A stretch of 64,000 nucleotides of DNA, from NCBI GenBank assembly GCA_029570205.1, contig JAKQSI010000051.1, forward strand, positions 45,952 to 109,951, read 5' to 3'. Below are positions 2,824 through 62,139 of the stretch, in pieces. Source of the DNA: Candidatus Omnitrophota bacterium. Lineage in GTDB: Bacteria; Hinthialibacterota; Hinthialibacteria; Hinthialibacterales; JAKPRU01. The position numbers were made by a program, and so were the translations under genes. The stretch's first letter is position 1. The number at the start of each line of letters is the position of its first letter. Under the pieces are notes generated by a model. The model was not told the DNA's origin. It did no database searches and saw only the letters and a program-made list of their open reading frames with translations.

Positions 2824-2850
2824 GCTTCTGTCTCCATGTTTGACGCTCCA

Positions 2851-3264
2851 GTAGGACAGGCCTCCGTGCCTGTTGCCCCCCGGTGGGACAGGTCTCCGTG
2901 CCCGTCGCCCCCCCGGTGGGACAGGCCTCCATGCCTGTCGCTCCCCCAGTAGGACAGGCCTCCGCACCTGTTGCCCCCCCGGTGGGACAGGCCTCCGTGC
3001 CTGTTGCCCCCCGGTGGGACAGGCCTCCGTGCCTGTCGCTCCCCCAGTAGGACAGGCCTCCGTACCTGTTGCCCCCCCGGTGGGACAGGCCTCCGTGCCT
3101 GTCGCCCCCCGGTGGGACAGGTCTCCGTGCCTGTTGCCCCCCGGTGGGACAGGTCTCCGTGCCTGTTGCCCCCCGGTGGGACAGGCCTCCGTGCCTGTTG
3201 CCCCCCGGTGGGACAGGCCTCCGTGCCTGTCGCCCCCCCGGTGGGACAGGCCTCCGTGCCTGTC
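2851..3264. repeat. Tandem array of 13 palindromic (REP-like) units, type A
   Basis: Thirteen head-to-tail units of about 32 bp share the pattern GTGGG, then ACAGGC-CTCCGT-GCCTGT, then a C-rich tail of TTGCCCCCC or TCGCTCCCCCA. The core is a hairpin with a 6-bp stem and a 6-nt loop. Unit-to-unit changes are few (GTAGG for GTGGG, CCATG for CCGTG, TACC for TGCC). No unit is separated from the next by a unique spacer. The array fills the region between the divergently transcribed OYE-like gene and rnd. The long open frames through it on both strands, which read VGQASVPVAP-like repeats, are compositional artefacts. Confidence 0.9.
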
Positions 3265-45331: not shown

Positions 45332-45827
45332 ACAGGCACAGAGGCCTGTCCCACCAGTGGGCCAGGCGTCCCTGTCTGGCAGCCATCCAGTAGGCCAGGC
45401 GTCCCTGCCTGGCAGCTACCCAGTAGGCCAGGCGTCCCTGCCTGGCAGCTACCCAGTAGGCCAGGCGTCCCTGTCTGGCAGCCACCCAGTAGGCCAGGCG
45501 TCCCTGTCTGGCAGCCACCCAGTAGGCCAGGCGTCCCTGCCTGGCAGCTACCCAGTAGGCTAGGCGTCCCTGCCTGGCAGCTACCCAGTGGGCCAGGCGT
45601 CCCTGCCTGGCAGCTACCCAGTAGGACAGGCGTCCCTGCCTGGCAGCTACCAGTGGGCCAGGCGTCCCTGCCTGGCAGCTACCCAGTAGGACAGGCGTCC
45701 CTGCCTGGCAGCTACCCAGTAGGCCAGGCGTCCCTGCCTGGCAGCTACCCAGTAGGCCAGGCGTCCCTGTCTGGCAGCTACCAGTGGGCCAGGCGTCCCT
45801 GCTTGGCAGCCACCAGTGGGCCAGGCG
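45332..45827. repeat. Tandem array of 14-15 palindromic units, type B, with an inverted type A leader
   Basis: The array opens with one inverted type A palindrome (ACAGGC-ACAGAG-GCCTGT, 45332-45349, then CCCACC). From 45356 there are 14 full 33-bp units and one partial unit of the form AGTAGG-CCAGGC-GTCCCT-GCCTGG-CAGCTACCC. Variants carry TGTCTGG, a GCTACC or GCCACCC end, or GTGGG. The core has the same CAGGC...GCCTG stem as the array at 2851-3264 but with a C-G outer pair instead of A-T. No unique spacers occur. Open frames through it are artefacts. Confidence 0.9.
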
Positions 45828-47876: not shown

Positions 47877-49673
47877 TCAGAAATAGTACCAGATCGTCTG
47901 ATAGTCGGCGGGATCTTCACCGATCTCACGGAGGCGGTTCAGGTAATCGAGAATGGGGATGTCCTCGCCGATATATGTACTCTGCGGAGCGATGTTTTTC
48001 TCCCATGGATGAAATTCGTAAATCCGGGAGCCGTCGGGACGAATAGACAGCAGATCATGGTGCTGGTAAGCGCGCAGGTAGTTTTTTCCAAGACCGGGCA
48101 CATTGAAGACGGCTTCATCGGTCCGTTCCAATCCCGGAAGAATCCGTGCTTCCTCTTTCTGTTCCTGTAAGAGCCGTGCAATCGGAACACGATAGGCCTT
48201 CGTTTCTTCTTTGCCTTTTGTGTTAAACGTATAATAAGGATCGATCCCCGCCAGGCGAAGAAGTCTTCTTAACAGTGCCGCCTCAAACCGACGAGAAACG
48301 TAGAAGGTGTATACGAGTTGGTTGTAAACGGGTATCCCTTCGCGTCGAAGGCGGTCGACCGCCGTCACCATATCCGGTGTGATTTCATAAGGATGTTCCA
48401 CATGAGTTACTACGGCAATTTCCCTCTTACCGGGAACACGAAGAGAGCCGAATAATTGTGCAAGACTTTCGGTAAATCTCATCGGCAGCGTAACCGGTGT
48501 CCGCGTGCCGATCCGAATCCGCTCCACACTGGGGATTGCGGCAACTTTTTGGAGGATCTCGCCCAGAATGTCGTCGTCGAGAGTCAGGGGATCTCCACCG
48601 GTAACCAGCACCTCGCGAATAGTCGGATGATCTCGAATCCAGGCAAGCGCCGCATCGATCCGCTCCGTGGAAGCAAGCGCCTCTTCCGAGAGAACATCCG
48701 TAATTTCCCAGTTCCTCTGACAGTAAACACAAATTTGGGGGCAGGTGTTATACGGTTTGAAAATCACGATCCCCGGATATCTCCGGGTAATCAGGTCGAT
48801 GGGTGAAGTGTCATGCTCCCGCATGAAATCGAGATCGCATTCCTTGCTCGTGCGGTATTGTTTCATCTGTTCGATGTATTCGGAGTTCGGAATTACCTGA
48901 GCACGAATCGCCCGGTCTCGAGTGGATGGGTGACAATCCATTAACGAGAGATAGTAAGGGGTAATGCCCACGGGGATTCGGGCCTCCCTCGCCGACCGGA
49001 TATCCTCGAGTTCTTCTTTCGTCACATGTACAAGCGAAAGAACCGGATGAGCATCCCGAATGACGTGTCTTAAATGCCAGCGCCAATCATTCCAATCCTC
49101 GGTGGATGCTCCGAATTGCCGGCAAATCCTGTCACGGAGCATGAGACGTTCTGCGACGATTTCCCCCTGCAATCCATGCGCGTACCGTTGCATCCTCTCT
49201 TCTACATGTTTGCCGAATCGATCGAGTTCGTTGGATCGTGCCAAGGCCGCCCTTCGTCCCGTCAGCGAGCTGCTGATATTGAGATAATCGGATATTTCCG
49301 AGGCTCCCCGTGTTTCCAGGCCCATAATAATGTGCATGAGATCCGCAAAAAATCCGGGCTGAAGATCGGGGCGTGGATTCCTTTTGCCAAGATCGAAAAG
49401 AACTCTGGCCACGCTGAATCCGGTAAAACTGTCCGACCGTGCCTTGAGAAGAGAACGCATGGCACGCGCGCAATCCCGTACACGGATCACCTTGCCCTCC
49501 GACAGCCCGACATCTTCGCGAAACATGTCGTATTGGTACCGGCTGACCTGCTCGAATATCCGTTCACGGGCGACTTCCACATTACTTGCGGACTCGGCAA
49601 TCACCAGGAACTCAGCCGCCTCTGCACGGAATTTCTCTTCGGTATATTCAATGGTCTGAGTGGGAAGCGCCAT
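47877..49673 (-). CDS. KamA-family radical SAM enzyme (lysine 2,3-aminomutase-like)
   Basis: This 598-residue protein has the radical SAM cluster C311-x3-C315-x2-C318 in NTCPQICVYCQRNWE and the family stretch ITGGDPL-like VLVTGGDPLTLDDDILG. The DWNDWRWHLRHVI segment near residue 195 is typical of KamA relatives. About 190 extra residues precede the core. The C-terminus has VFNVPGLGKNYLR where aminomutases carry a Gly-rich PLP-lysine loop, so PLP use is uncertain. An aminomutase or other radical rearrangement is likely; the substrate is not readable. The ATG at 49673 is preferred; a GTG 12 codons upstream is possible. Confidence 0.85.
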   Translation of the reverse strand: MALPTQTIEYTEEKFRAEAAEFLVIAESASNVEVARERIFEQVSRYQYDMFREDVGLSEGKVIRVRDCARAMRSLLKARSDSFTGFSVARVLFDLGKRNPRPDLQPGFFADLMHIIMGLETRGASEISDYLNISSSLTGRRAALARSNELDRFGKHVEERMQRYAHGLQGEIVAERLMLRDRICRQFGASTEDWNDWRWHLRHVIRDAHPVLSLVHVTKEELEDIRSAREARIPVGITPYYLSLMDCHPSTRDRAIRAQVIPNSEYIEQMKQYRTSKECDLDFMREHDTSPIDLITRRYPGIVIFKPYNTCPQICVYCQRNWEITDVLSEEALASTERIDAALAWIRDHPTIREVLVTGGDPLTLDDDILGEILQKVAAIPSVERIRIGTRTPVTLPMRFTESLAQLFGSLRVPGKREIAVVTHVEHPYEITPDMVTAVDRLRREGIPVYNQLVYTFYVSRRFEAALLRRLLRLAGIDPYYTFNTKGKEETKAYRVPIARLLQEQKEEARILPGLERTDEAVFNVPGLGKNYLRAYQHHDLLSIRPDGSRIYEFHPWEKNIAPQSTYIGEDIPILDYLNRLREIGEDPADYQTIWYYF

Positions 49674-50031
49674 GATGTTCGCCTTCTGATGTCTCTGAAT
49701 ATTCCCCACCTTTCATCGGCAACATGTGATTATGCCTGCTGACTGCCCAATCGCGATCTGTTTCAGACCACAAATTGGGAAAGGCATTTCTTCAGAAAAT
49801 CACGCGCAAGTTGCTGTCAGGCTGTCCCTGCAGCCTGTTCATCGACAGGGAACGCAGTTCACTGCATTGCTATCCCCCGCTTCGCTTCGAACATTCCGAT
49901 CATTTCATGACGGCTATCTTCATTAGTCACATATCTTATCAATATGCAACATTATTTCATTACAAAAGCATTGCTGATTCTCGAATAATCCACCGTCGTA
50001 TGCCGGCATCATATCGTAAAATACAAAAAGA
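49674..50031. other. Non-coding gap with a small palindrome
   Basis: These 358 bp lie between the ATP-grasp partner gene and the KamA-like gene, both on the minus strand. At about 49819-49838 CAGGCTG-TCCCTG-CAGCCTG forms a hairpin of the same general shape as the array units. GCAGT-TC-ACTGC occurs near 49855. No coding frame looks real. The A/T-rich stretch 49920-50030 may hold the KamA-like gene promoter. Confidence 0.45.
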
Positions 50032-51441
50032 TCAAGGTATTAATTCGGCAGCCGCGAGACCCGCTGGACGTGCATTCGCCTCAAGGAGCATCCAGCGGAT
50101 TGTCACCTCGTCCGGATGCCAAACCGGAATCATGTCGAATGCAATCAACGATAATCGGTCCATATCCGGCACATCATGCTCCAGCGCTGCAACCGCAATC
50201 TGAGCGAGGGATTTGATAGATTCCATATCCAAGACTTCTTCGGGAATAAAGTGGTGTTTCTCTTCTTCAACGCACATGAGTGCTTTTTTGCCACCACTGA
50301 GGCGGAGAATAGCCGCGCCGCACCCCACGGACACAACATCGGATGACGCATCTCTCGCCATGTACCAGCACCCGGAATAGGACCAGGTTCCTGAACTCGT
50401 CTTGACGACATTTAAACGCAACACAGCCCTTTTTGGAACCCCCTCGTGGTAGATATATACGTTTCCGCATTCTTCGCGAATCAGGACATCATTCCACGAT
50501 TGAATATTCTGCGTAATGTGTAATAGCGCATTCTCTACCTCGGCGGATTGCAGGGGAAACCGGCGCACACGATCTCCCTCGGTGGAATCATCCGGCAGCA
50601 CATACACCACGAGGACCCGTTCGCCTATCTCCAACAGAAGACGATGCACTTGATCCCGCGTCCATTCCTTTGGCACAAACCAGTGACCCGGCGTCGAAAT
50701 CCCGATACGTTCCCAGCACCGATGGGCAAGATGCTTCCGATCCGCTCTTTCACTGACTCGACCGGCAGGGTTTAACAGGACAATCCCCGTCTCCCGGGCT
50801 TCGATTGTCAGTTGACGATGAAGAGGAATTTCTTCCTTGCGTGGCAGGTTGAGGATGAGCGCTGAATGAATCCGTACAGGATGCTTAAACCGAACAAGGC
50901 GGGACTTTCCATCTTCACCCACCAGAACTCCCCCGAGTGCCGTTCCGTCATTCCGAATCCAACACGAGCGTGGCACTCCGAGTACCCTTGCATGAGATCG
51001 CAGTTCCCCGATGCGTCCCTCTTCCAGTGCATGAACCGTCTGAACAATAGAGAGGATTTCATTACCGGTAAGAACCGCCAATATTTCGTTCCCCCCTTTC
51101 CATTCCTCGACGGACTCCGCCGTCCACACCGCCGGATCGACTCGAACCATAGGTAATCGAAATCGACCGGCAACCCGCTCCCGAAACAGGGCCTTCACGA
51201 TATCGAGGTAGGTCTTGTCTCTTACGAAAACAAACTCCCCATCCGTTAGCCGTACGCGATTGCGGATATCCTGCCAGACATCCTCATTCTGCACTGCGGC
51301 ATCAATGGCGTCAACAAGAAGAACACAATTCGCGGGAGCAGCCAGCCGATCCCAACAATTCAGTCCGAAGCGCGATTCCAGCAGGGTCCTCAACAAAGCG
51401 TCCAGGAACACACTGAACTCATCCCTGGAAAACTCTTTCAT
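50032..51441 (-). CDS. ATP-grasp-like partner protein of unknown function
   Basis: I do not recognise this 469-residue soluble protein as a named family. The C-terminal 200 residues look like an ATP-grasp fold. VVYVLPDDSTEGDRVRRF is a nucleotide-loop-like segment, but without the usual Lys-Pro lysine. It is followed by VLIREECGNVYIYHEGVPKRAVLRL and finally LLEANARPAG (residues 452-461), which matches the metal-binding L-E-x-N-x-R motif. The N-terminal half (about 1-190) is alpha/beta with no motif I can name. Its ATG overlaps the stop of the giant gene (ATGA), so the two are translationally coupled and probably work together. Confidence 0.8.
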   Translation of the reverse strand: MKEFSRDEFSVFLDALLRTLLESRFGLNCWDRLAAPANCVLLVDAIDAAVQNEDVWQDIRNRVRLTDGEFVFVRDKTYLDIVKALFRERVAGRFRLPMVRVDPAVWTAESVEEWKGGNEILAVLTGNEILSIVQTVHALEEGRIGELRSHARVLGVPRSCWIRNDGTALGGVLVGEDGKSRLVRFKHPVRIHSALILNLPRKEEIPLHRQLTIEARETGIVLLNPAGRVSERADRKHLAHRCWERIGISTPGHWFVPKEWTRDQVHRLLLEIGERVLVVYVLPDDSTEGDRVRRFPLQSAEVENALLHITQNIQSWNDVLIREECGNVYIYHEGVPKRAVLRLNVVKTSSGTWSYSGCWYMARDASSDVVSVGCGAAILRLSGGKKALMCVEEEKHHFIPEEVLDMESIKSLAQIAVAALEHDVPDMDRLSLIAFDMIPVWHPDEVTIRWMLLEANARPAGLAAAELIP

Positions 51442-54400
51442 TGTTTCAGTTCATTCTCGATGCGGCGAATGGCTTTGCCGACCGGGTCCTCTTCCGAAGA
51501 TGCTGAGACGAAACGAACTGTTGCGGTTGTCTCATCGTAGAGCGATTTTGTTTTCATCAGTCTTGCAAGACAATCTTTGTAGATTTTCGCTCGTTCACCC
51601 AGGCATCGGAAAATCGTGTAGACCCCTTCACCTTTCCGTTCCGGCGGAAGCTGATCGTTATGCGGACGCCACAACCCCGCGCCGGGATTCGGCTCAATTT
51701 TGAAGACGGTCAACAAACGGAGCGCCTCGCCCCGACTGTCAAACAAGGGTATCCGGATTCCTGCCTCATCAAAAGCCGGAATGGGTAATGGGTAACCTCG
51801 CGCATCGACCCGGGGGATCGGTCGTCGTTTCTTATCGAAAATCTCTACCTCGGTCGGAGAACCGTCCCTGTTGAACAGCGGTAGAATCTCTTCCGCCTTC
51901 TTATCGTACACCGCAATGTAACGGTCCTCTTGATCGACCAGCATGACCGGCATATAGTCGCCCATTTCGTAAGGAATATCCCAGTCGGCTATTCCGGTCA
52001 GATCTTCGCCCAACTCGCGTGGAACACGATCCCTGAATTCGGGATAAATATCCAGATACTCATCGAGAATCTCTCGCCAGTGTTCCCGGATATAGTTCCG
52101 CTGGCTGACCAGGGATTCCAGCGCTGCGTAAGTGATTCCATCCCGAAGGTCTTTCCGGTACTTGGGATGGATCATGTTGTCCGTGTATTCATACAGCAGC
52201 CCACCCTGGCCCACATTGGCAATCCCGGCGGTAGAGATAACACAAATATGATGCGAGATCTGGTAATCCTGCGCCCCGCGTACAACTATCTGCCGGAAAT
52301 AACAGAACAGAGGGGTCTGCGGCTCCCGATCCAGATGGCAGGTCACGCCGATTCGAGCAAACCGGTCCACCATAGACTCCAGGAACTCCCGCCGGAACAA
52401 CTGGCGCACGCGAGAAGGAATTACCGATTGCACCACAACATTATCAGTCTGCGATATATCGTAGATCAATTCGGTCAGTTCCCGGATATTATCTTTCAGG
52501 AGTTCGTGATTCTGACGGAGAGGCAAAATCTTCGCGCGTCGGCCGCCGGATTCCTTTTCCGGTTTTACAATTACAATGTCATGTGTTTCGGCAAACTCCA
52601 TAAGACGACGCCGGACCTCCCGGATTCCCTCCTCTTCGGACAGGGCATTCCGTTCCCGCCGATACCAGTTGAACTGGTCCGCCGTGCGCACACCGCTGCC
52701 CTTCAGCATATCCGGAAGCGCGCATTTGAGATGAGTCGCCGCTTCCCACAGAATCGGCTGAATCAGCGGACATCCGACTTTGCCGATATCAGGCCGTAGA
52801 GGATGCGTAAAGTGGAAGAACACCGCATCGGCAATTAACGGTTCCGGTAGTTGAATGGCTACAAAAATTCCGTCGTCACCCAGGAGACGGCAACGGGCCT
52901 TGATTTCGTTGTCCGGTTTCCCCGCCGCCCGGAGTAGCCGTTCGAAATCCAGGGCGTTCAGGTACATCAAGCCATCATGAAGCCGAAGCACTTCTCGGCC
53001 CGCCCGTGGATCCTCCTCAATCGTCGGGAATGCCGACAGAATCAGGTTGATCTGTTCATTGCGCGCAAGACGATGTCCCTGCTCCAGGGCAACCGGGACA
53101 GTCGTGTTCCCAAACGGGTAGATGATTCCCACCGTGGCCCGCTTGTTCGCCTGTAATAACTCCGGCGATACGTCAAGCAGCAATTCAGGTAACGGAAACC
53201 CATCGTGTACCAGCACAGAGGCATCCCGGAGCCGCGAGTACGAGAACCAGAACCGCTCCGCCTCGTTATCGGCCCTTACTCCAAGAGGAATCACCCCTCG
53301 GGAAACATCGCCGATCCAGATATCTTGGTAAGCAGGCTCTGTCTCTGCAAGGCATGTCTCGGTCAGCATCAGCATCCGGGCATAGCGGTATAGCCATTGA
53401 TGCCGCCGGAACGCCAGATCGATTTTCTGTCCGCGTGACAGTCCCTCAAATGCCGCTGAGCGCTGCTTGTGATAATGGTACGGAATGTAGTCGAAAATAT
53501 GGCTATTGACGGTCACATCGAAATAGCGTGCGATCTGGACCATCATCTCATCGGGATTATCCACGCCCAGCGTGCGCTGAATCAGCAGGGCGCGATCGAC
53601 TAATTCAAGCGTCTCCGCACAGCGGGTTAATGTGTCGCTGTCTTCACGAAACTTCTCCGTGGCTTTCGCTAAAGCCTGAACCAGCGGCAGGTATCCTTGC
53701 TCCAGGACCCCTCCGGCGCCAAAGAAGCCATCCAGTGCGGCATCCGCGTCCCGGTCGGCCATTACCAGTTCGGAGGAAACCTGACTCACAAGGTGCCTGG
53801 CCCATGCAAGGAATCGTCCGTAATTTTCCGGATCGACCTTGACCGTCCCGTCACCAAGAAAAGCGGCGGCGGTATCATATAGCGTGCGGAAGTCCCCGGC
53901 GGGAGATTCCGCGAGAAACGCGCGGCGTTGTTTGCGCTGACGATCGGCTAATTCGGCCTGTTTACGCCGCGCGGCACGCGCGGCAAGACGGCTCACCTGT
54001 TCTTCGGCCGCCTTCAGCGAGCCTTCAATGCCGGTCGAGACCTCTCGATACTCCGAAACCTCCGGCATGATATAAATCGGTCGGACAAAAGAAACAACCA
54101 CATCATCTACCATATTTTGCGGCAGGCCCGCCAAGCCTCCGTGTTCCGCTCCCGATTCGGCAATCAGGCTCTCGAACTCCTTTCGGCGAGTCGTAATGTC
54201 ATGCGCTTCCAGTTTGCCGTTAATCGCATACACCCCGCCCAGGATCAACCAGGTTCCAAAATCGAGATGGCCAAGTTTCAAGCCGCGTTTGATCAGGCTC
54301 ATCGCCTGGGAGGCCAGGTGGTAGGAATGCTGAACTCGTTTGGAACAGTGCATCTGCCGGGCGGTAATTTCATCCTGTGCGGCCCGCTCGGCGCGTCGAT

Positions 54401-57400
54401 GCCGGATCATCCGGTCTGAAATCCGGTCGAAAATAGCCGTCGCTTTCAGCGTATCCCCTTCTTTCAACGCATCCAGAAGCGTAACGGCCCGGTCCCGGTC
54501 CTTTTCCATTTCGCGTCGCCAAGTCTCGATGGTTTCATCGCCCAGGCCCAGTGAGCCATAAACCGCATTCGGCTCCAGCGCGAGCAGTTCCTTTACTTTG
54601 CGCTCACTGGAGGCATAACGGTATGAGAACGCGCGGCGGCGACCGCCGGATGTGCCGTCCGCAAATACCAGGGCGCTGTGCGGCCGGCCCCGGCGAAGGT
54701 ACGCAATGAATCGCGGGAGATCGTCGATCAGATCGAGCAGTTCGGGATCGGGAATCCCCAGATCGACAAAGTCCGCTCCCTGTAACGCCTCGCGATACGT
54801 GCGGAAGGGACCGCGCCGATCAATAACGACCAGATGAATCTGTGCGCCAAATTTCTCTATCAAGGTCTTTCGTTCCGCTTCAGGAAGATCCTTTACTCCC
54901 ACCCATCGCTTCAGGTCCCCGCCATAGACATCGCAATTGCAGCGAATCATATTGTCGTCCAGTCCGGCTTGATACAGGATGTCAATCACTTCGTCTTTAG
55001 CGGGTTCCAGACCGGAGGCCGGCACATAATTAAGAAGGTCCGAACCGGTGCAACGTCCGACCAGACGAAGATCGGCAGGCGATTTCACATCCCGGATCAT
55101 CCGTCGCGCTAACTCTCGCCCATCCGGGTCCAAATCCAACAGGAGCTGTTTTTCAGACAGGCCGGAATAGATGGCTAGTTTTCGCGCACCTGCGCTGAAC
55201 CGCACATCGGTAATGGGGATTTCCTTTCCTGCAATTCGTTCGCTTTCTTTGTATGAGGCCCCGATTACACCAATACAGTCCTCTTCCGCAGCCACCTGCG
55301 GATTGCGATTCCGTGCGGCTCTCAGAAGACGTCGGATCAGATGCACCTTCCGGAATGGGCCGGATCGGTTGATTTCTTCCAGCCCCTGCGCTTTCTTGTT
55401 CACCCAATCCGTAAAGGCATATTGGATTTCACGTTCCTCATCGCCGTCACGGCCCATTACTCCGAGCTGCTCGAAAATGGAGGCCAGGCGAGGGAGCCGG
55501 GCAAGGAATCCTTTTCCCTCGGTTACTGTTACATATTCGAGGATTCGCGGCTTCAGAAATGCGCGGGCTTTCTGTTCCCATTCCAGAATGGAGTCGCATT
55601 CCGTCCAGAGTCTCAGCGCGCCCCTTAAATCTTTCGTCAGATCGGCTCGGATTTCCTTCGGTATGCCGAACGAATCGTAGACATCCTCTGCCGTACTGGG
55701 GCGCAACGCGGCCACAATAATCGCGTAAAGTAACGAAAACTCTTTCGGCACACAGAACCCGCCATACGTCTCGCCGGTCGGTAAAACCATGCGGTCACCG
55801 CGCATGTTCCATTGATCCCGGAAAAACTCAAAATCGCCGATCCCAAGAACATCGATATTCACTCCGGCTGTCAGGGACAGATAAAAGACCCCCCCGCGCG
55901 AGAAAAAGTTCTCGCCGACTTTCAGGAATTCCGCAAGTCGGGGTGAATCCACAGCGGTCACACCCGCCATGTTGTACAGGCCATAGAACGAACGACCGCT
56001 GTTCGCGGCGTTGACATCTACCCCGCCTACCCATTTCGGCACGTTCTGAACCGAATGCACCTCCTGTGCCCCCAGGTCCACACGGCTTGGAGTGTAAAGG
56101 AGATTATATCGTTTATATGGGCCGGTAGCTTCGTAACGGAATCGGGGATCGTCGAGATCGGCGGTTCGTCCCGCCTCGGCGATCACCTCGCGGCGTGCAT
56201 AGAGCAGGGCATGCATATTGCGCAGGCGTCGTTTCAGATAGGCGGCCGCTTCACTCTGCAAGCCGAGTTCCTCGACCAATTTCCGCCGCGCTTCCGCATA
56301 GATATGGCTTTCCTTTTCCCGTCTCCAATCGGGATTCGCATCGACAAACGCTTTCGCGCTCTTCTTTGATTCCCGGACGGCAGACTCCAGAGCATTTTCA
56401 GCAACAACCCGCGCCACGGCATTCTTCTCCAATTCGGGATGCTTCGAGCAGTATTCGGAGATAGACGGCAGTGTTTGCTCGCGGGCAAGGCTGTCGAGTT
56501 CCCCCTTTCCTTCCGCAAGCGCCGCCAGAAGCGCAACCTCACGCCCGACTTCCGGGTACGACAAAACAACCTTAAGAAGAGCGACATCGCAATCTTTCGG
56601 ATTTTCGGGGTCCAGCCCCTCTTCCTCCATCACCGTGAACAAATCACCCTGCAAATCCATTTCATGGACAAGGATGCGCGCCGCTGAAAGGACCCGAGAC
56701 TCGTATTCCTCAATCCGCTCCTGCACCTTGTCTTCAAGCCCCCGCGTGCGCGTGACATTGAACAGAGCCATCGATTCTTCCAGCCAGTTTCGGATATGCG
56801 TGTCCGTTTCGCCGGGACCCAGAGTGGTCAGGACATGAAGGTTCGGCAAGTTCCGACGTCTGGCAACAGCGATATTCCGATAGAGATCCAGTCGCTCCTG
56901 TCCGCCGGACTGTTTCAATTGCAGGGAAACGGCCTCGGACAGATCCGTTGTGTCAAGGGCTTTCCTAATCGGATTGTCGGTCGATTTCAGCAGGGAACCC
57001 AGCGCCTCCAGTCGTGTTGACTCGTCTGCTTCCATGCGTTTCGCCAGATTCTCGGCCTGTTCCTGCTCAAATTGTTCGATCAGCAGCGCCAATCCGGCGA
57101 CAAGGTCTCGCTGTTCAAACAGTTGAGGCAGGTGGCGAATCCCTTCTTCAATCGGTTCGTTCTTCTCAACGGCAAGCGCCTCGGCTCGCCCCATCCAGCC
57201 CTCACGTTCCACCAGCAGTTCCCGCGCAATCGCCACATTTTCGGACTTCATAACTTCTTCGATATTCAACGCCCAATGTTCCGCGTGACGGCGGAACATG
57301 TCCTCCAGTATGCCGCGCTGCACATACGGCTTGATATCGTATCCGCTCCCGGGGCGCGGGGTGATCGTGTAACTCGCATAAGCAGGGAGCGCCTCCACCC

Positions 57401-58718
57401 AGTCCTCGCAATGTTGAAGCCATGCCGCCAGGTTCGGCGTGATATACATCCGATGACCGCAATCACAGATCAACTGCCGGACATGTTCATCCTCGCCGAA
57501 AAACGGATCGACAAATTCATTCACCGTGCCGAGGTTGATTGCATCGAGCGGGAAAAGACGCTGAAGAAAAATGACAAACGCAGGATCGTATTTCGGGGCC
57601 GCCGCCACGGCTTCCTCAATGCGCATCAGCTGGTAACGCACCCGGTCACATTGGTAGACAATCTCGGCGCGGTCGGACTGGAATTTCCGCCATGTCGGAC
57701 TGACACCGCTTTCCCTGCGACGCTCTTCGAGAATGGCGTCCCGATGTTGCCTCTGCAAATCGTCTACCACCTTCTGAATGCGTTGTTCAACGGACCGCAA
57801 GGCTTTGAGAAAATTGTTGATCGCCCCGTCGATCTGGGCTTCCGAGATAAGCCGTTCGCCAAGAAGATTGACAATGGCCTGCTTCTCTCCTCCCAGATCC
57901 TGCATAACCGTGCTGAGATCGCGCAGGTCCTCCGTAAGAAAATTCAAACGGGCCTCGCGCACACAGCGGTCCAGCTCCTCAATACTCGATTGCAGGATTC
58001 GCGTGTCGAAAACCTTGGCGCTCGCCGCCAGCATAGCCTCCAGGTAAAATGCCCGACTGAACCGCCCCCCCACCAGCCGGACACCTTCTTCCCGACACCA
58101 TTCCGCGATTCGACGCGCATTCTCAGTATCCAAATCGGCCTGAAAGGTCTCATTGATGATGGAATAAACCTGCTGACGCAGCTGGGCAATGTCGGTGATA
58201 TTCTGAAGAGCGCGCCGGACTCTATCGCCATCATAAGGCAATTCAATTTGAGTACGTGCCAGGACCCAGGCAGCAAGGCGCCGACGTTCTTCAATACCGA
58301 CTGCAAGGCCGTTGCGTAAAAAGCGTTCGAATACTCCGGCCGCATCGACATCCTTGGACGAAAGAGCCTCAAAAACCTCCTTCCGGCTCCCCTGCGGCCA
58401 TGTATCCATCAAATCCAGACAGGCAATCAGCGAATCCCGCTCGGTTTTCCCGCGAAGTACCTCCAGACAGAACACCACCCCCAGACCGACCAGCAGGGCC
58501 GCACCATGAGAAGAACCCTGGGCCAGCCGACGAATCCCCTCCACTCCCAACCGAAGAATCGGAGATTGACCGTTCCAACGCGAGATCAACAGATCCGCCA
58601 CCGCATCGTGCTCCTCCATCGCGCAAACCGAGAGACCGGCCCACTGCTCCCTGTCCGGCAGGGAAGCGCCGACACGGGTCCGAACCGGCTCCGCGAGCTT
58701 GCCCAGAGTCTTATCCAT
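51438..58718 (-). CDS. Giant multidomain protein with C-terminal ATP-grasp-like region
   Basis: This intact protein of 2,426 residues (2,482 if it starts at 58886) is one I do not recognise. In 2,482 numbering, roughly the first 900 residues are mostly helical. Residues about 950-1,650 are mixed, with CNCDVYGG and KWVGGVDVNAANSGRS segments. A basic coiled stretch (RLAARAARRKQAELADRQRKQRR) lies near 1,720. From 1,919 an ATP-grasp arrangement appears: IIYPFGNTTVPVALEQ pre-domain, DIVIVKPEKESGGRRAKIL (2,103-2,121), VVVQSVIPSRVRQL, then GIANVGQGGLLYEY near 2,222. An ATP-driven ligase or kinase reaction is plausible. The start at MDKTLGKL follows GGTGGGG closely; the longer start cannot be excluded. 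Confidence 0.8.
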   Translation of the reverse strand: MDKTLGKLAEPVRTRVGASLPDREQWAGLSVCAMEEHDAVADLLISRWNGQSPILRLGVEGIRRLAQGSSHGAALLVGLGVVFCLEVLRGKTERDSLIACLDLMDTWPQGSRKEVFEALSSKDVDAAGVFERFLRNGLAVGIEERRRLAAWVLARTQIELPYDGDRVRRALQNITDIAQLRQQVYSIINETFQADLDTENARRIAEWCREEGVRLVGGRFSRAFYLEAMLAASAKVFDTRILQSSIEELDRCVREARLNFLTEDLRDLSTVMQDLGGEKQAIVNLLGERLISEAQIDGAINNFLKALRSVEQRIQKVVDDLQRQHRDAILEERRRESGVSPTWRKFQSDRAEIVYQCDRVRYQLMRIEEAVAAAPKYDPAFVIFLQRLFPLDAINLGTVNEFVDPFFGEDEHVRQLICDCGHRMYITPNLAAWLQHCEDWVEALPAYASYTITPRPGSGYDIKPYVQRGILEDMFRRHAEHWALNIEEVMKSENVAIARELLVEREGWMGRAEALAVEKNEPIEEGIRHLPQLFEQRDLVAGLALLIEQFEQEQAENLAKRMEADESTRLEALGSLLKSTDNPIRKALDTTDLSEAVSLQLKQSGGQERLDLYRNIAVARRRNLPNLHVLTTLGPGETDTHIRNWLEESMALFNVTRTRGLEDKVQERIEEYESRVLSAARILVHEMDLQGDLFTVMEEEGLDPENPKDCDVALLKVVLSYPEVGREVALLAALAEGKGELDSLAREQTLPSISEYCSKHPELEKNAVARVVAENALESAVRESKKSAKAFVDANPDWRREKESHIYAEARRKLVEELGLQSEAAAYLKRRLRNMHALLYARREVIAEAGRTADLDDPRFRYEATGPYKRYNLLYTPSRVDLGAQEVHSVQNVPKWVGGVDVNAANSGRSFYGLYNMAGVTAVDSPRLAEFLKVGENFFSRGGVFYLSLTAGVNIDVLGIGDFEFFRDQWNMRGDRMVLPTGETYGGFCVPKEFSLLYAIIVAALRPSTAEDVYDSFGIPKEIRADLTKDLRGALRLWTECDSILEWEQKARAFLKPRILEYVTVTEGKGFLARLPRLASIFEQLGVMGRDGDEEREIQYAFTDWVNKKAQGLEEINRSGPFRKVHLIRRLLRAARNRNPQVAAEEDCIGVIGASYKESERIAGKEIPITDVRFSAGARKLAIYSGLSEKQLLLDLDPDGRELARRMIRDVKSPADLRLVGRCTGSDLLNYVPASGLEPAKDEVIDILYQAGLDDNMIRCNCDVYGGDLKRWVGVKDLPEAERKTLIEKFGAQIHLVVIDRRGPFRTYREALQGADFVDLGIPDPELLDLIDDLPRFIAYLRRGRPHSALVFADGTSGGRRRAFSYRYASSERKVKELLALEPNAVYGSLGLGDETIETWRREMEKDRDRAVTLLDALKEGDTLKATAIFDRISDRMIRHRRAERAAQDEITARQMHCSKRVQHSYHLASQAMSLIKRGLKLGHLDFGTWLILGGVYAINGKLEAHDITTRRKEFESLIAESGAEHGGLAGLPQNMVDDVVVSFVRPIYIMPEVSEYREVSTGIEGSLKAAEEQVSRLAARAARRKQAELADRQRKQRRAFLAESPAGDFRTLYDTAAAFLGDGTVKVDPENYGRFLAWARHLVSQVSSELVMADRDADAALDGFFGAGGVLEQGYLPLVQALAKATEKFREDSDTLTRCAETLELVDRALLIQRTLGVDNPDEMMVQIARYFDVTVNSHIFDYIPYHYHKQRSAAFEGLSRGQKIDLAFRRHQWLYRYARMLMLTETCLAETEPAYQDIWIGDVSRGVIPLGVRADNEAERFWFSYSRLRDASVLVHDGFPLPELLLDVSPELLQANKRATVGIIYPFGNTTVPVALEQGHRLARNEQINLILSAFPTIEEDPRAGREVLRLHDGLMYLNALDFERLLRAAGKPDNEIKARCRLLGDDGIFVAIQLPEPLIADAVFFHFTHPLRPDIGKVGCPLIQPILWEAATHLKCALPDMLKGSGVRTADQFNWYRRERNALSEEEGIREVRRRLMEFAETHDIVIVKPEKESGGRRAKILPLRQNHELLKDNIRELTELIYDISQTDNVVVQSVIPSRVRQLFRREFLESMVDRFARIGVTCHLDREPQTPLFCYFRQIVVRGAQDYQISHHICVISTAGIANVGQGGLLYEYTDNMIHPKYRKDLRDGITYAALESLVSQRNYIREHWREILDEYLDIYPEFRDRVPRELGEDLTGIADWDIPYEMGDYMPVMLVDQEDRYIAVYDKKAEEILPLFNRDGSPTEVEIFDKKRRPIPRVDARGYPLPIPAFDEAGIRIPLFDSRGEALRLLTVFKIEPNPGAGLWRPHNDQLPPERKGEGVYTIFRCLGERAKIYKDCLARLMKTKSLYDETTATVRFVSASSEEDPVGKAIRRIENELKQ

Positions 58719-59159
58719 TGCCCCACCGAAGAACTCTTTTAGCGAGATCACCCCCGGCTTTGCTTTCAGACGCCCTTCCCGACGACATGCCGTTTGAACC
58801 CCCCTCGTCAAAGTGCGTTCCACCAGTGTCAGGGGAAAAAGCACACGGCTGAAACCGGGCCGCTCATGTTGCAAACAAACAGTCATTATCTCAATTCCTT
58901 TCGGCTTTGGTTCTTATGGACTTATGCTGGATATATACAATATTATCAGAAAAGGACTGGAGCCGGCAGACTTCATCCAATGGCCCCGTTTTGTCCGGGT
59001 TGTTTCCTATTAGACACCAGAGAAGAACAGAGAGCCAAGGGAACTGTTTATCCGGGTTCCCGCTCTTTCCGAATAGGATATCCTATCACAAATCTTGTGG
59101 TAAAATGGAATGAGGCTTTGGAGCCATTGGCGTGCAACAATAGGCATGGAGGTTTCCGG
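58719..59159. other. Divergent intergenic region upstream of the giant gene
   Basis: These 441 bp (273 if the giant gene starts at 58886) separate two divergent genes and must hold both promoters. A TAAAAT at 59101-59106 could be a -10 box for the rightward gene, but no matching -35 is clear. No coding frame in the region is convincing, and I see no array or hairpin. Confidence 0.4.
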
Positions 59160-61673
59160 ATGTATCGAGTTTCTGTCAAACCATCCATCGCGCTTCTTCT
59201 TTTTGTCGTATCGGTGGCACTGCCGGTTCACGCACAAACAAGGATTCAAATCGGACAATTGGTCGAAGGTACCCTGACACCGGAGCAGGCGACAGCGGAT
59301 TTTGTCATCTCCGGAACAGGAGGAACGTATCTTTCCATCATCTGCGAGGCTCCCAACCGAGATGTTTATCTCACGCTAAAAGTTTTTGATTATTTCAACA
59401 ACCTCCTGGGAAGAAATGAGGGTATCAATTTTCCGGAGTTTTATGGGGCTTATCTGCCCATCTTGTTGCCGTCGAGCTCCAGTATACGGATACGCATTGA
59501 AAGTAGTTTTCCTTCGGGCGTTTCTCGGGCAACCTTCACGTTGGAAACACGGGAGTTCCCCTCGGATGAACAGGATGGGACCATCATTACACGAGATAGT
59601 CCGTTCTCCGGCCTGATCGGGCTTGAAGGGGATTATGATATCTACGCAATCAAACTCTCTCAAAGCAAATCGCCGGTTTGGGTGACGCTGCGGACGCCCC
59701 ATGATGTCCTGGACGGATACCTGAAAGTTTATACCTACGAATGGGTTACACTGGGAGTCAACGACGATTTTCTTGATACCTCTCCATGTGTGCTGTTCCG
59801 ACCGGACTACACCGGCTGGTATTTCATTGTGGTTCAAGGGTCTTTCTGGGAGTCGGTCGGTCCCTACGAGCTGACCGTGCAATCCGTCTGGGATGTTGCG
59901 CCGGAAGATGAATTTCCCGATGTGATCGCTGTCCAGGGGCAGTCCCAGGCTTATTTTCTTGAACTGACTCCTGATGATACCGTCTCGGTAGAAATTAAGA
60001 GTATTACGGATGGTTTCAAACCGACGTTTATTCTCTTCGATATCTGGCGACGGCTGGTCACAATCCAGGAAGCCGATCCAACCACCGGCATTGCCCGGAT
60101 TCGCGGGTATACACCTGTCGCCGACGGTTTAAATGTGTTCATCGTGCTGGGGGCGCGCGACGAAGAAACTGGGGAGTATCTCGTGCGAACACATTTGGAA
60201 CAGGACGAGCAAGACAACCGCGCGATATCGACTCAACAGGACATCGAAGGGATTCTCGGTCCGGCGGGGGACATCGATACCTTTACATTTGACGGACGGT
60301 CCGGCGAGCGCGTGTCTGTGTGGGCCTGGCCCGATACTTCGCGGACACTCCCGCTCGATCCGCTGGTTCGATTGAAAGGTCCGTCAGGGCAGCTGATTGC
60401 TGAGAACGATAACGCCGTCAGCGTGGAAGGATCTCTCATTAGCGGCGCATACCTCTCGCAGACCGGAAAACACACCATCGAGCTGCCGGCTTCACCGCTC
60501 TTGCCGGATGCAACCGCCGCAACCGGCGCGTACATCCTCTCCGTCACAGAAGGAACCGGTTTTGACCTGGAAGCGCCTCGATTTGCCTACCAGGGGCTTC
60601 AATTCCGTCACGAATCCGGACAGGCAGTCATTACAATAACAAGCAGTGAAGTGGCGGATGACACCTGGCCGGTCCACGCCGACCTTGTACTCGACCGGAC
60701 AGGCGAGAAGCAAAACGCAGTCTTGTCTCCCTTATCGGACACGACATTCAATGTCCCTTCGCAAACGAGAGATATTTTCTTCCTGTACTTGCAGGATGAC
60801 GCGGATATACCCAATCGCACCGATCCGTTAATTATTCCCTCGCCGGTAGCCATTGCGAGTGATCTGGGTATGCCGTTCGGCCTCGCCGTGCGCGAAACCG
60901 GTGAAGTGTTGGCCATCGACGCACTGCAAGGAAGGATTCTGGAATTCGACAGTTCGGGTAATTATCAGGTCTTTGCCTCCGGCATTGCCACAAGTGGCGG
61001 ATTGCTTGGTCCGAACGCTCTGGCGTTCGATCATAACGGCGATCTGTATCTTTCAAACGCCAAAACCGGAGAGATCGTTCGATACGACATCCACGGAGCA
61101 ACAGAAACTGTGGCATCGGGGTTGGATTTTCCGGTGAGTATTACATTCGATGCCGAAAACCGCCCCGTTGTCTGCTTGATCGGTAGCGATGAAATTATCA
61201 GAATCGAGCCGAACGGGGATTGTACAGTCCTGACGGGGGGAGTTCGGAATCCATTCGACGCCGCGTTCGGCCCGAGCGGCGACCTGTTCATAACATCCAA
61301 TGACGCCGGTAACGGCACGATATTTCGACTGAGCCGGGATGGGGCTTTAAGGCAAGTGGTTGAACCCTTCGCGAATGAACTGGACTCCATTGCGGTAGAC
61401 ATGGAGGGCAATCTGTATGTAGCGGATGGTAGTCAAGGCTGGATTTGGCGGGTTCGCCCCGATGGCACGATGCAGAAATTCGCCTGGGGGTTCTCCGGCC
61501 CGACGGATCTGGCATTCGGGCGCGGCGAGCAATCGGACATTCTGTATATAGCCGCGATGGGTGCAACCTGGTTCAGTTATTTCGGCGGCAGCTTGTCGAG
61601 TGTACGAACCGGCAAGAGCGGGTTGCCGTTACCGTTTGATGGAACCGCCGTCTCCGACTGGTCCTTATACTAA
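59160..61673 (+). CDS. Large secreted protein with PPC-like and NHL-propeller domains
   Basis: This 837-residue protein has a Sec signal (MYRVSVKPSIALLLFVVSVALPVHAQ). The N-terminal two thirds contain repeated beta-sandwich units like bacterial pre-peptidase C-terminal domains, for example DYDIYAIKLSQSKSPVWVTL and GDIDTFTFDGRSGERVSVWAW...ISGAYLSQTGKHTIELP. The C-terminal third is an NHL/SMP-30-like beta-propeller (GMPFGLAVRETGEVLAIDALQGRILEFDSSG, LAFDHNGDLYLSNAKTGEIVRYD). Such proteins are extracellular or surface-attached binders; no catalytic residue set is evident. GGAGG lies seven bases before the ATG. Confidence 0.88.
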   Translation: MYRVSVKPSIALLLFVVSVALPVHAQTRIQIGQLVEGTLTPEQATADFVISGTGGTYLSIICEAPNRDVYLTLKVFDYFNNLLGRNEGINFPEFYGAYLPILLPSSSSIRIRIESSFPSGVSRATFTLETREFPSDEQDGTIITRDSPFSGLIGLEGDYDIYAIKLSQSKSPVWVTLRTPHDVLDGYLKVYTYEWVTLGVNDDFLDTSPCVLFRPDYTGWYFIVVQGSFWESVGPYELTVQSVWDVAPEDEFPDVIAVQGQSQAYFLELTPDDTVSVEIKSITDGFKPTFILFDIWRRLVTIQEADPTTGIARIRGYTPVADGLNVFIVLGARDEETGEYLVRTHLEQDEQDNRAISTQQDIEGILGPAGDIDTFTFDGRSGERVSVWAWPDTSRTLPLDPLVRLKGPSGQLIAENDNAVSVEGSLISGAYLSQTGKHTIELPASPLLPDATAATGAYILSVTEGTGFDLEAPRFAYQGLQFRHESGQAVITITSSEVADDTWPVHADLVLDRTGEKQNAVLSPLSDTTFNVPSQTRDIFFLYLQDDADIPNRTDPLIIPSPVAIASDLGMPFGLAVRETGEVLAIDALQGRILEFDSSGNYQVFASGIATSGGLLGPNALAFDHNGDLYLSNAKTGEIVRYDIHGATETVASGLDFPVSITFDAENRPVVCLIGSDEIIRIEPNGDCTVLTGGVRNPFDAAFGPSGDLFITSNDAGNGTIFRLSRDGALRQVVEPFANELDSIAVDMEGNLYVADGSQGWIWRVRPDGTMQKFAWGFSGPTDLAFGRGEQSDILYIAAMGATWFSYFGGSLSSVRTGKSGLPLPFDGTAVSDWSLY

Positions 61674-61785: not shown

Positions 61786-62139
61786 TTACCTCCCCCGAAG
61801 ATCGGGGGAGGTCAGGTGGGGGTTGACAGGAGACCCGATAGATTCCCGGCAAAATCCCGCATCCCCCTGTATCGCAATCTCTACTTTCGGCCACCTTGCT
61901 CGGACCCGCTCCACGATCCGCGCCACCCACTCCGCCACCGTGTGTTCAATCCGTTCCGCATCCCGTGAATCCCGAAAACACCCGCTGAACTGCCGGAGAA
62001 TCCCACACCGCTGTTCCTCTTCCCGCAACAGCAGCCCGCCTGCGTCCGATGTGATCCTTCCCTCGTCAAACAAGGCCACCAGTTCCGGTTTCTCCAATGG
62101 TTGAAAATCGAACAACGTCCCTGTACACTCTGTTCTCAT
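61786..62139 (-). pseudogene. IS1380-family transposase remnant with internal deletion
   Basis: The 117-residue frame opens like an IS1380 transposase (FDFQPLEKPELVALFDEGRITSDAGGLLL, then RDAERIEHTVAEW). It then jumps in frame to a segment that normally lies much further on (VARIVERVRARWPKVEIAIQGDAGFCRE). Intact transposases of this family have more than 400 residues, so about the middle and all of the C-terminal half are missing. The DNA ends at a strong hairpin, ACCTCCCCCGA/TCGGGGGAGGT (61788-61812, 11-bp stem), at the 3' edge. It sits between two secreted-protein genes and is not expected to be active. Confidence 0.85.

Follow-up and report, generated by a model that had tools for sequence, protein, structure and literature searches.

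A giant protein of 2482 residues and a small ATP-grasp protein of 469 residues, encoded side by side in a 64,000-nucleotide stretch of a Candidatus Omnitrophota bacterium genome (contig JAKQSI010000051.1, positions 45,952 to 109,951; hereafter the window), almost certainly form a three-gene system with a GHMP sugar kinase that this genome encodes on another contig. In the giant, an ATP-grasp module is appended to a core of nucleotide-sugar dehydrogenase descent, and the system probably performs sugar chemistry. We tentatively propose that its three components serve to activate and ligate a sugar.

Both open reading frames in the window are intact, and the ATGA at 51438-51441 is common to the TGA stop of the giant gene and the ATG of the small gene, as had been noticed in an initial annotation made from the sequence alone. 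The motifs quoted there (KPEKESGGRR and GIANVGQGGLLYEY in the giant, LLEANARPAG and LPDDS in the small protein) were each located as well. The same annotation had the giant start at 58718, which would drop residues 1-56. We place the start at 58886, which gives 2482 residues, because a GGA is found 5' of the ATG at this position and because the consensus of the homologues at the N-terminus, FPL..V....ARR..G, aligns with residues 17-38 of the window copy. The features of both genes are listed in Table 1.

Table 1. Positions in the window of the two genes and of the regions recognised in their products
Feature	Position	Strand	Support
Giant protein, type-A subfamily	51438..58886	minus	2482 residues; intact open reading frame; full-length homologues at 42-55% identity; conserved N-terminus
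Giant residues 17-38, N-terminal motif FPLTLV...ACRREG	58773..58838	minus	Aligned in giants of both subfamilies
Giant residues 684-705, TTLGPGET, resembling the STVPxGTT that closes the NAD domain of nucleotide-sugar dehydrogenases	56772..56837	minus	hhalign weak alone, collinear; Thr687 and Thr688 invariant (28/28)
Giant residues 905-1078, nucleotide-sugar dehydrogenase central domain (Glu986, Lys989, Asn993, Cys1045)	55653..56174	minus	hhalign probability 98%, E ~1e-13
Giant residues 1164-1246, start of the dehydrogenase C-terminal substrate domain (Asn1173, Lys1213, Arg1229)	55149..55397	minus	hhalign probability 57%, E ~1e-4, collinear; residues invariant (28/28)
Giant residues 2004-2410, whole ATP-grasp module (Lys2054, Lys2108, Arg2198, Glu2398, Asn2400)	51657..52877	minus	Residues conserved in both subfamilies; homology to the small protein
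Giant residues 2061-2158, ATP-grasp lobe with KPEKESGGRR	52413..52706	minus	VIA-align: Ddl, DcsG and RimK, Z 6-9, root-mean-square deviation ~2.1-3.9 over ~66-86 residues
Small ATP-grasp protein	50032..51441	minus	469 residues; intact open reading frame; ATGA overlap; profile matches of relatives; co-occurrence with the giant
Small protein residues 230-463, ATP-grasp core (ADRK, LPDDSTEG, RE, RLNV, D436, LEANARPAG)	50053..50754	minus	Alignments

Co-occurrence of the giant, the small protein and a sugar kinase

Homologues of type A, the subfamily of the window giant, are 42-55% identical and many are full length; their hosts are Bathyarchaeota, Zipacnadia, Latescibacteria/Latescibacterota, Elusimicrobia, UBP4 and two further bacterial genomes. 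Such sequences occur in several phyla of bacteria as well as in Bathyarchaeota, which indicates that the giant frame is not due to chance. A second subfamily, type B (~30% identity, ~2,350-2,740 residues), occurs in the order and the class to which the window's genome belongs; it is also present in the phyla represented by the Latescibacterota and Zipacnadia loci.

The distribution of the small protein follows that of the giant. Among 386 bacterial genomes, where long giant matches and strong small-protein matches alone were counted, the same 14 carry both proteins and 372 carry neither. Matches to giant residues ~900-1055 in frames of ~450 residues, taken as ordinary dehydrogenases, were excluded from the giant counts, and short matches with E values of 1e-3 to 1e-6 in ATP-grasp-like frames of ~300-490 residues were dropped from the small-protein counts. 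In the phylum of genome G102, both proteins are found in 19 of the 64 genomes and neither in 43, the giant alone in one, on a truncated contig, and the small protein alone in one, at a contig edge (Fisher p 4.5e-14, without phylogenetic correction). Overall, 39 of 42 giant-bearing genomes encode the small protein. The two genes adjoin in 10 of the 12 type-A lineages in which this could be tested (manual count) and in 11 type-B genomes; in the remaining cases they are distant from each other within the same genome. Pairwise distances between giants and between small proteins are also correlated (r 0.80 over 28 genomes, 0.87 within type A and 0.88 within type B), a value reached in none of 2000 permutations and to which shared ancestry contributes. 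The initial annotation had supposed that the two genes belong to a single system and had named as counter-evidence genomes in which they occur apart as often as together; the opposite was observed, and the co-occurrence in both samples bears the supposition out.

The third member is a GHMP sugar kinase. Of 41 loci, 27 have its gene directly after the small gene and four more have it nearby (manual count). The kinase gene still follows the small gene in 14 loci in which the giant is elsewhere in the genome (L069, L070, L183-L194). The kinase of the window's own genome is encoded on contig C20 (606 bits), and for the window's genus, G040, G174 and G486, a close member of the kinase family is encoded on a separate contig. 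The kinases of the system, all outside the window, match both the N- and the C-terminal GHMP domains above the curated cut-off. Those accompanying type A resemble galactokinases and those accompanying type B resemble fucokinases/heptokinases, so that two GHMP branches track the two giant subfamilies. Three type-A kinases scored 124-164 for galactokinase proper, below the TIGR00131 cut-off of 226.65.

Domain composition of the giant protein

Searched alone, neither window protein matches a Pfam family, and NCBIfam and phmmer return almost nothing beyond a weak match to a nucleotide-sugar dehydrogenase. The initial annotation had found no named family for residues 1-1,900 of the giant. This has to be revised, as residues 925-1055 match the nucleotide-sugar dehydrogenase model TIGR03026 (3e-5), six of 18 homologous sequences match Pfam UDPG_MGDP_dh, the profile-profile comparison by hhalign is strong (Table 1) and the central domain matches Protein Data Bank (PDB) entry 3g79 (E 1.3e-5). 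A weaker collinear piece of the dehydrogenases was found by hhalign at residues 1361-1399. Conservation supports these alignments: Glu986, Lys989, Asn993 and Cys1045 are invariant in all 28 aligned giants, as are, among the residues for the substrate diphosphate, Asn1173 and Lys1213; at position 1049, type-B giants have Asp and type-A giants have Glu. Eighteen invariant residues have been listed for the nucleotide-sugar dehydrogenase family (PMC4794789). Thr118, Pro140, Glu201, Lys204, Asn208, Gly257, Gly258, Cys260, Asp264 (Glu in type A), Asn287 and Lys320 of this set are kept in 28 of 28 giants, and Ser117 is replaced by Thr. No Rossmann match was obtained with hhalign in residues 240-330 and 400-560; a GR[FLM]SRAF is conserved instead of the NAD-binding motif.

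The C-terminal part of the giant contains the ATP-grasp module. Lys2054 and Lys2108 are present in 28 of 28 giants, and Arg2198, Glu2398 and Asn2400 in all those that cover these positions. Residues 2004-2238 are homologous to the small protein (hhalign probability 90%, E 1.4e-6), and the module gives weak Pfam matches to GSH-S_ATP and ATPgrasp_ST. Structures were predicted with AlphaFold for residues 260-1459 and 1283-2482 from 13-row alignments. Neither model matches the PDB in Foldseek at E 0.001 or better. In the second model, which is weak overall (predicted local distance difference test, pLDDT, 65), VIA-align superposes the first lobe on Ddl, DcsG and RimK, in line with the ATP-grasp fold expected in the initial annotation; the second lobe is modelled with low pLDDT. 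Z scores of 6-9 are middling, and the weight of this comparison rests on the uniform list of ligases and on the conserved residues. Profile matches, hhalign homology, fold matches and conserved residues support ATP-grasp modules in both proteins, where the initial annotation had seen ATP-grasp-like signatures. For the first-half model VIA-align listed mostly helical bundles, which we did not use; the lack of dehydrogenase matches there says nothing, because a large part of the dehydrogenase region has a pLDDT of ~25-45, and the confidence of this model is too low for the presence of a Rossmann domain to be judged from it. Sub-alignments covering residues 130-700, 1440-1890 and 1880-2460 gave no credible match in searches of PDB profiles.

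The small ATP-grasp protein

Nine of 14 relatives of the small protein match ATPgrasp_ST, and matches to ATP-grasp_3 (best 1.1e-8) and ATPgrasp_YheCD were also obtained. The family is probably catalytic, judging from its sequences, since it keeps the acid and Asn of ATP-grasp enzymes (LEANPRPAG), the Arg and the first Lys. The alignment shows no variation at the first Lys, Arg342, Asp436 or Asn456, and has Glu or Asp at position 454. The phosphate loop is more variable: it reads QPN.GTEG in most of type A and often KPN.GTEG in type B, and the window protein has LPDDSTEG, in line with the initial remark that LPDDS stands in place of the usual Lys-Pro loop. The small protein of the window's genus is ~25-30% identical to other type-A small proteins, as against ~50% for the giant. 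Because of this faster divergence and of the LPDDS loop, this copy may be impaired or changed.

Subfamilies and distribution of the giant

Types A and B are separated in the tree with full support, and the two archaeal rows group together. Bacterial and archaeal type-A giants are ~50% identical, with conservation along most of their length. In the class of the Bathyarchaeota locus L042, four of 250 sampled genomes carry the giant; this sparse presence fits with transfer between domains, in metagenome assemblies for which misbinning is possible. One Bathyarchaeota giant (L044, 4105-9729 and 9710-11770) consists of two overlapping frames, reflecting either an assembly frameshift or a true split gene.

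The window's genome also encodes a type-B paralogue (G000, contig C87). At this locus (L053, 3047-14015) the type-B giant has its own small ATP-grasp gene 1.4 kb off in divergent orientation, with an FAD synthetase/riboflavin kinase between them and no adjoining GHMP kinase. Regulatory genes (sensor kinase, sigma-54 regulator, HDOD) adjoin several type-B giants.

Neighbouring genes and other features of the window

The pair is followed in the window by a gene for a KamA-family radical SAM protein of 610 residues with an extended N-terminus (47877-49709, minus strand), which scores under the cut-offs for lysine, glutamate and arginine aminomutases. As the gene is next to the pair in no genus but this one, it was rejected as a member of the system; a beta-amino acid could come from its product. 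In several loci the small gene is accompanied by HisH and HisF/HisA-like genes; these were not counted either, as their scores are those of ordinary histidine biosynthesis. In five loci of the window's order (L069, L070, L183, L184 and L185), HisH and HisF genes share an operon-like run with the small gene, which the GHMP kinase gene follows, and the giant is elsewhere; four of these five runs include a Trp/Tyr-type tRNA synthetase gene. Sugar-type neighbours confined to single lineages were ROK, Gfo/Idh/MocA and DUF2064 proteins.

On the other side of the pair, a divergent gene (58794-61673, plus strand) encodes PPC and SMP-30/NHL-like beta-propeller domains; its true start probably lies downstream, since the listed one overlaps the 5' end of the giant gene. 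A short open reading frame at 61786-62139 (minus strand) is presumably a piece of an IS1380-type transposase. A tandem repeat at 45354-45827 comprises 14.5 copies of a 33-bp unit (CCAGTAGGCCAGGCGTCCCTGCCTGGCAGCTAC; 94% matches), and a similar 32/98-bp array is located at 2848-3263.

Discussion

The initial annotation had suggested a pair that makes or modifies a peptide-like bond or phosphorylates a large substrate. The dehydrogenase-derived core and the GHMP kinase point to sugar chemistry instead. From the parts and their association, which sequence and genome data establish, we infer the following chemistry. The GHMP kinase would phosphorylate a sugar, probably at C1, and the sugar phosphate or nucleotide sugar would dock in the dehydrogenase-derived site of the giant. 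At this site C6 would be bound to Cys1045 in a thiohemiacetal or a thioester, in the manner of UDP (uridine diphosphate)-glucose dehydrogenase. The ATP-grasp module of the giant, alone or with the small protein, would convert a carboxylate into an acyl phosphate, and the activated carboxylate would be passed to an amine or another acceptor to yield a uronamide-type sugar conjugate. The change of the active-site Glu to Ser would slow the release of free acid and favour transfer. A Glu161 mutant of the human UDP-glucose dehydrogenase has been solved with a bound thiohemiacetal intermediate (PMC3184952); assuming that Glu161 is equivalent to Glu141, the natural Ser at this position in the giants is suggestive. 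This particular route, from a Cys-held sugar through ATP-grasp activation to transfer, remains doubtful. In its boldest form, which we regard as unlikely, the dehydrogenase-derived Cys site would have lost NAD (nicotinamide adenine dinucleotide) binding and would now serve as a thioester station. The fused ATP-grasp module would charge this station for the transfer of a sugar-derived acyl group, and the substrate would come from the second ATP-grasp and an exchangeable GHMP kinase.

Several observations weigh against activation and ligation of a sugar by these three components. The catalytic Glu141 corresponds to Ser934 in 28 of 28 giants, next to the retained Pro933, and neither the NAD-binding GxGxxG with its three Rossmann glycines nor Thr83 was found in them; given the missing GxGxxG and the substituted Glu, oxidation may not occur. 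The match to the C-terminal dehydrogenase domain is moderate, and the models of the giant lack good confidence (mean pLDDT 60 and 65). Type-A small proteins are without the Lys of the Lys-Pro loop (Gln, Leu or Met), which type B often retains. No acceptor gene is conserved, KamA being confined to one genus, and nearly all sequences apparently come from metagenome assemblies.

Other explanations account for part of these data. Both ATP-grasp modules could be phosphotransferases that phosphorylate a sugar or polyol after the GHMP kinase step, the dehydrogenase core merely binding the substrate. The partner gene is indeed a sugar kinase, some inositol phosphate kinases have an ATP-grasp fold, and the giant is missing the NAD-binding motif and the catalytic Glu. 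However, the invariant Cys1045, Lys989 and Asn993 would be needless in a mere binding domain and the closest fold matches of the giant module are carboxylate-amine ligases; this reading appears rather unlikely. It is also unlikely, though slightly more so, that the giant functions as an NAD-dependent nucleotide-sugar 6-dehydrogenase, with a diverged NAD domain split by insertions and an ATP-grasp module coupling the uronate to an amine. Such an enzyme would explain the collinearity of the motifs from residue 684 to 1399 and the retention of Thr688, Pro933, Lys989, Asn993, GG and Cys1045, Asn1173 and Lys1213, and by eye residues ~425-520 recall the strand order of an NAD domain; against it stand the lack of a Rossmann match by hhalign in residues 240-330 and 400-560, the constant Ser and the Thr83 that was not seen.

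In the catalytic/regulatory pair of the initial annotation, the small protein would have a regulatory role, controlling the giant as an ATP-grasp protein of reduced catalytic function. The rapid divergence of the copy in the window's genus, its LPDDS loop and the Gln, Leu or Met of its type-A relatives are compatible with this role, which is made improbable by the invariant ATP-grasp residues, by the full KPN.GTEG loop of many type-B members and by the small gene staying with the kinase even where the giant is elsewhere. A conflict or defence system, to which the patchy distribution in the L042 class and the ~50% identity between bacterial and archaeal type-A giants could be ascribed, is very improbable: no PADLOC model was matched, the conserved partners are metabolic and no phage, nuclease or toxin was noticed among annotated neighbours.

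Several known families come close to parts of the system. With the nucleotide-sugar 6-dehydrogenases (UDP-glucose, UDP-N-acetylmannosamine and guanosine diphosphate-mannose; PF00984, TIGR03026, 3g79) the giant shares the central domain and the start of the C-terminal domain, but giants measure ~2,350-2,740 residues instead of ~425, with long insertions and a fused ATP-grasp module, and differ in the Ser for Glu141 and in the GxGxxG and Thr83 that were not found. One lobe superposes on ATP-grasp carboxylate-amine ligases (D-Ala-D-Ala ligase, DcsG, RimK, glutathione synthetase GSH-S_ATP) and the Lys, Lys, Arg and Glu-x-Asn are kept; unlike these enzymes, the module has very low identity and a poorly modelled second lobe and is attached to a core of dehydrogenase origin. 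Relatives of the small protein match ATPgrasp_ST (PF14397), ATPgrasp_YheCD (PF14398) and ATP-grasp_3 (PF02655), whereas the window protein matches none of them, has an extra N-terminal region and belongs to a type in which the phosphate-loop Lys is replaced. The kinases resemble GHMP kinases (galactokinase TIGR00131, fucokinase PRK13412, heptose kinase HddA) in their N- and C-terminal domains and glycine-serine phosphate loop, but the GEHTDY sugar signature reads GVHxEH in most of type A, in addition to the low galactokinase scores. We found no paper on the giant or on the three-gene set in the open literature, which is weak evidence of novelty as the collection searched is incomplete.

Through its partners, an orphan giant gene becomes part of a testable pathway made of a sugar kinase, a dehydrogenase-derived giant and a second ATP-grasp protein. 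If our proposal is true, a nucleotide-sugar dehydrogenase scaffold would have been recruited for ATP-driven group transfer, and a sugar conjugate would be predicted in several little-studied phyla.

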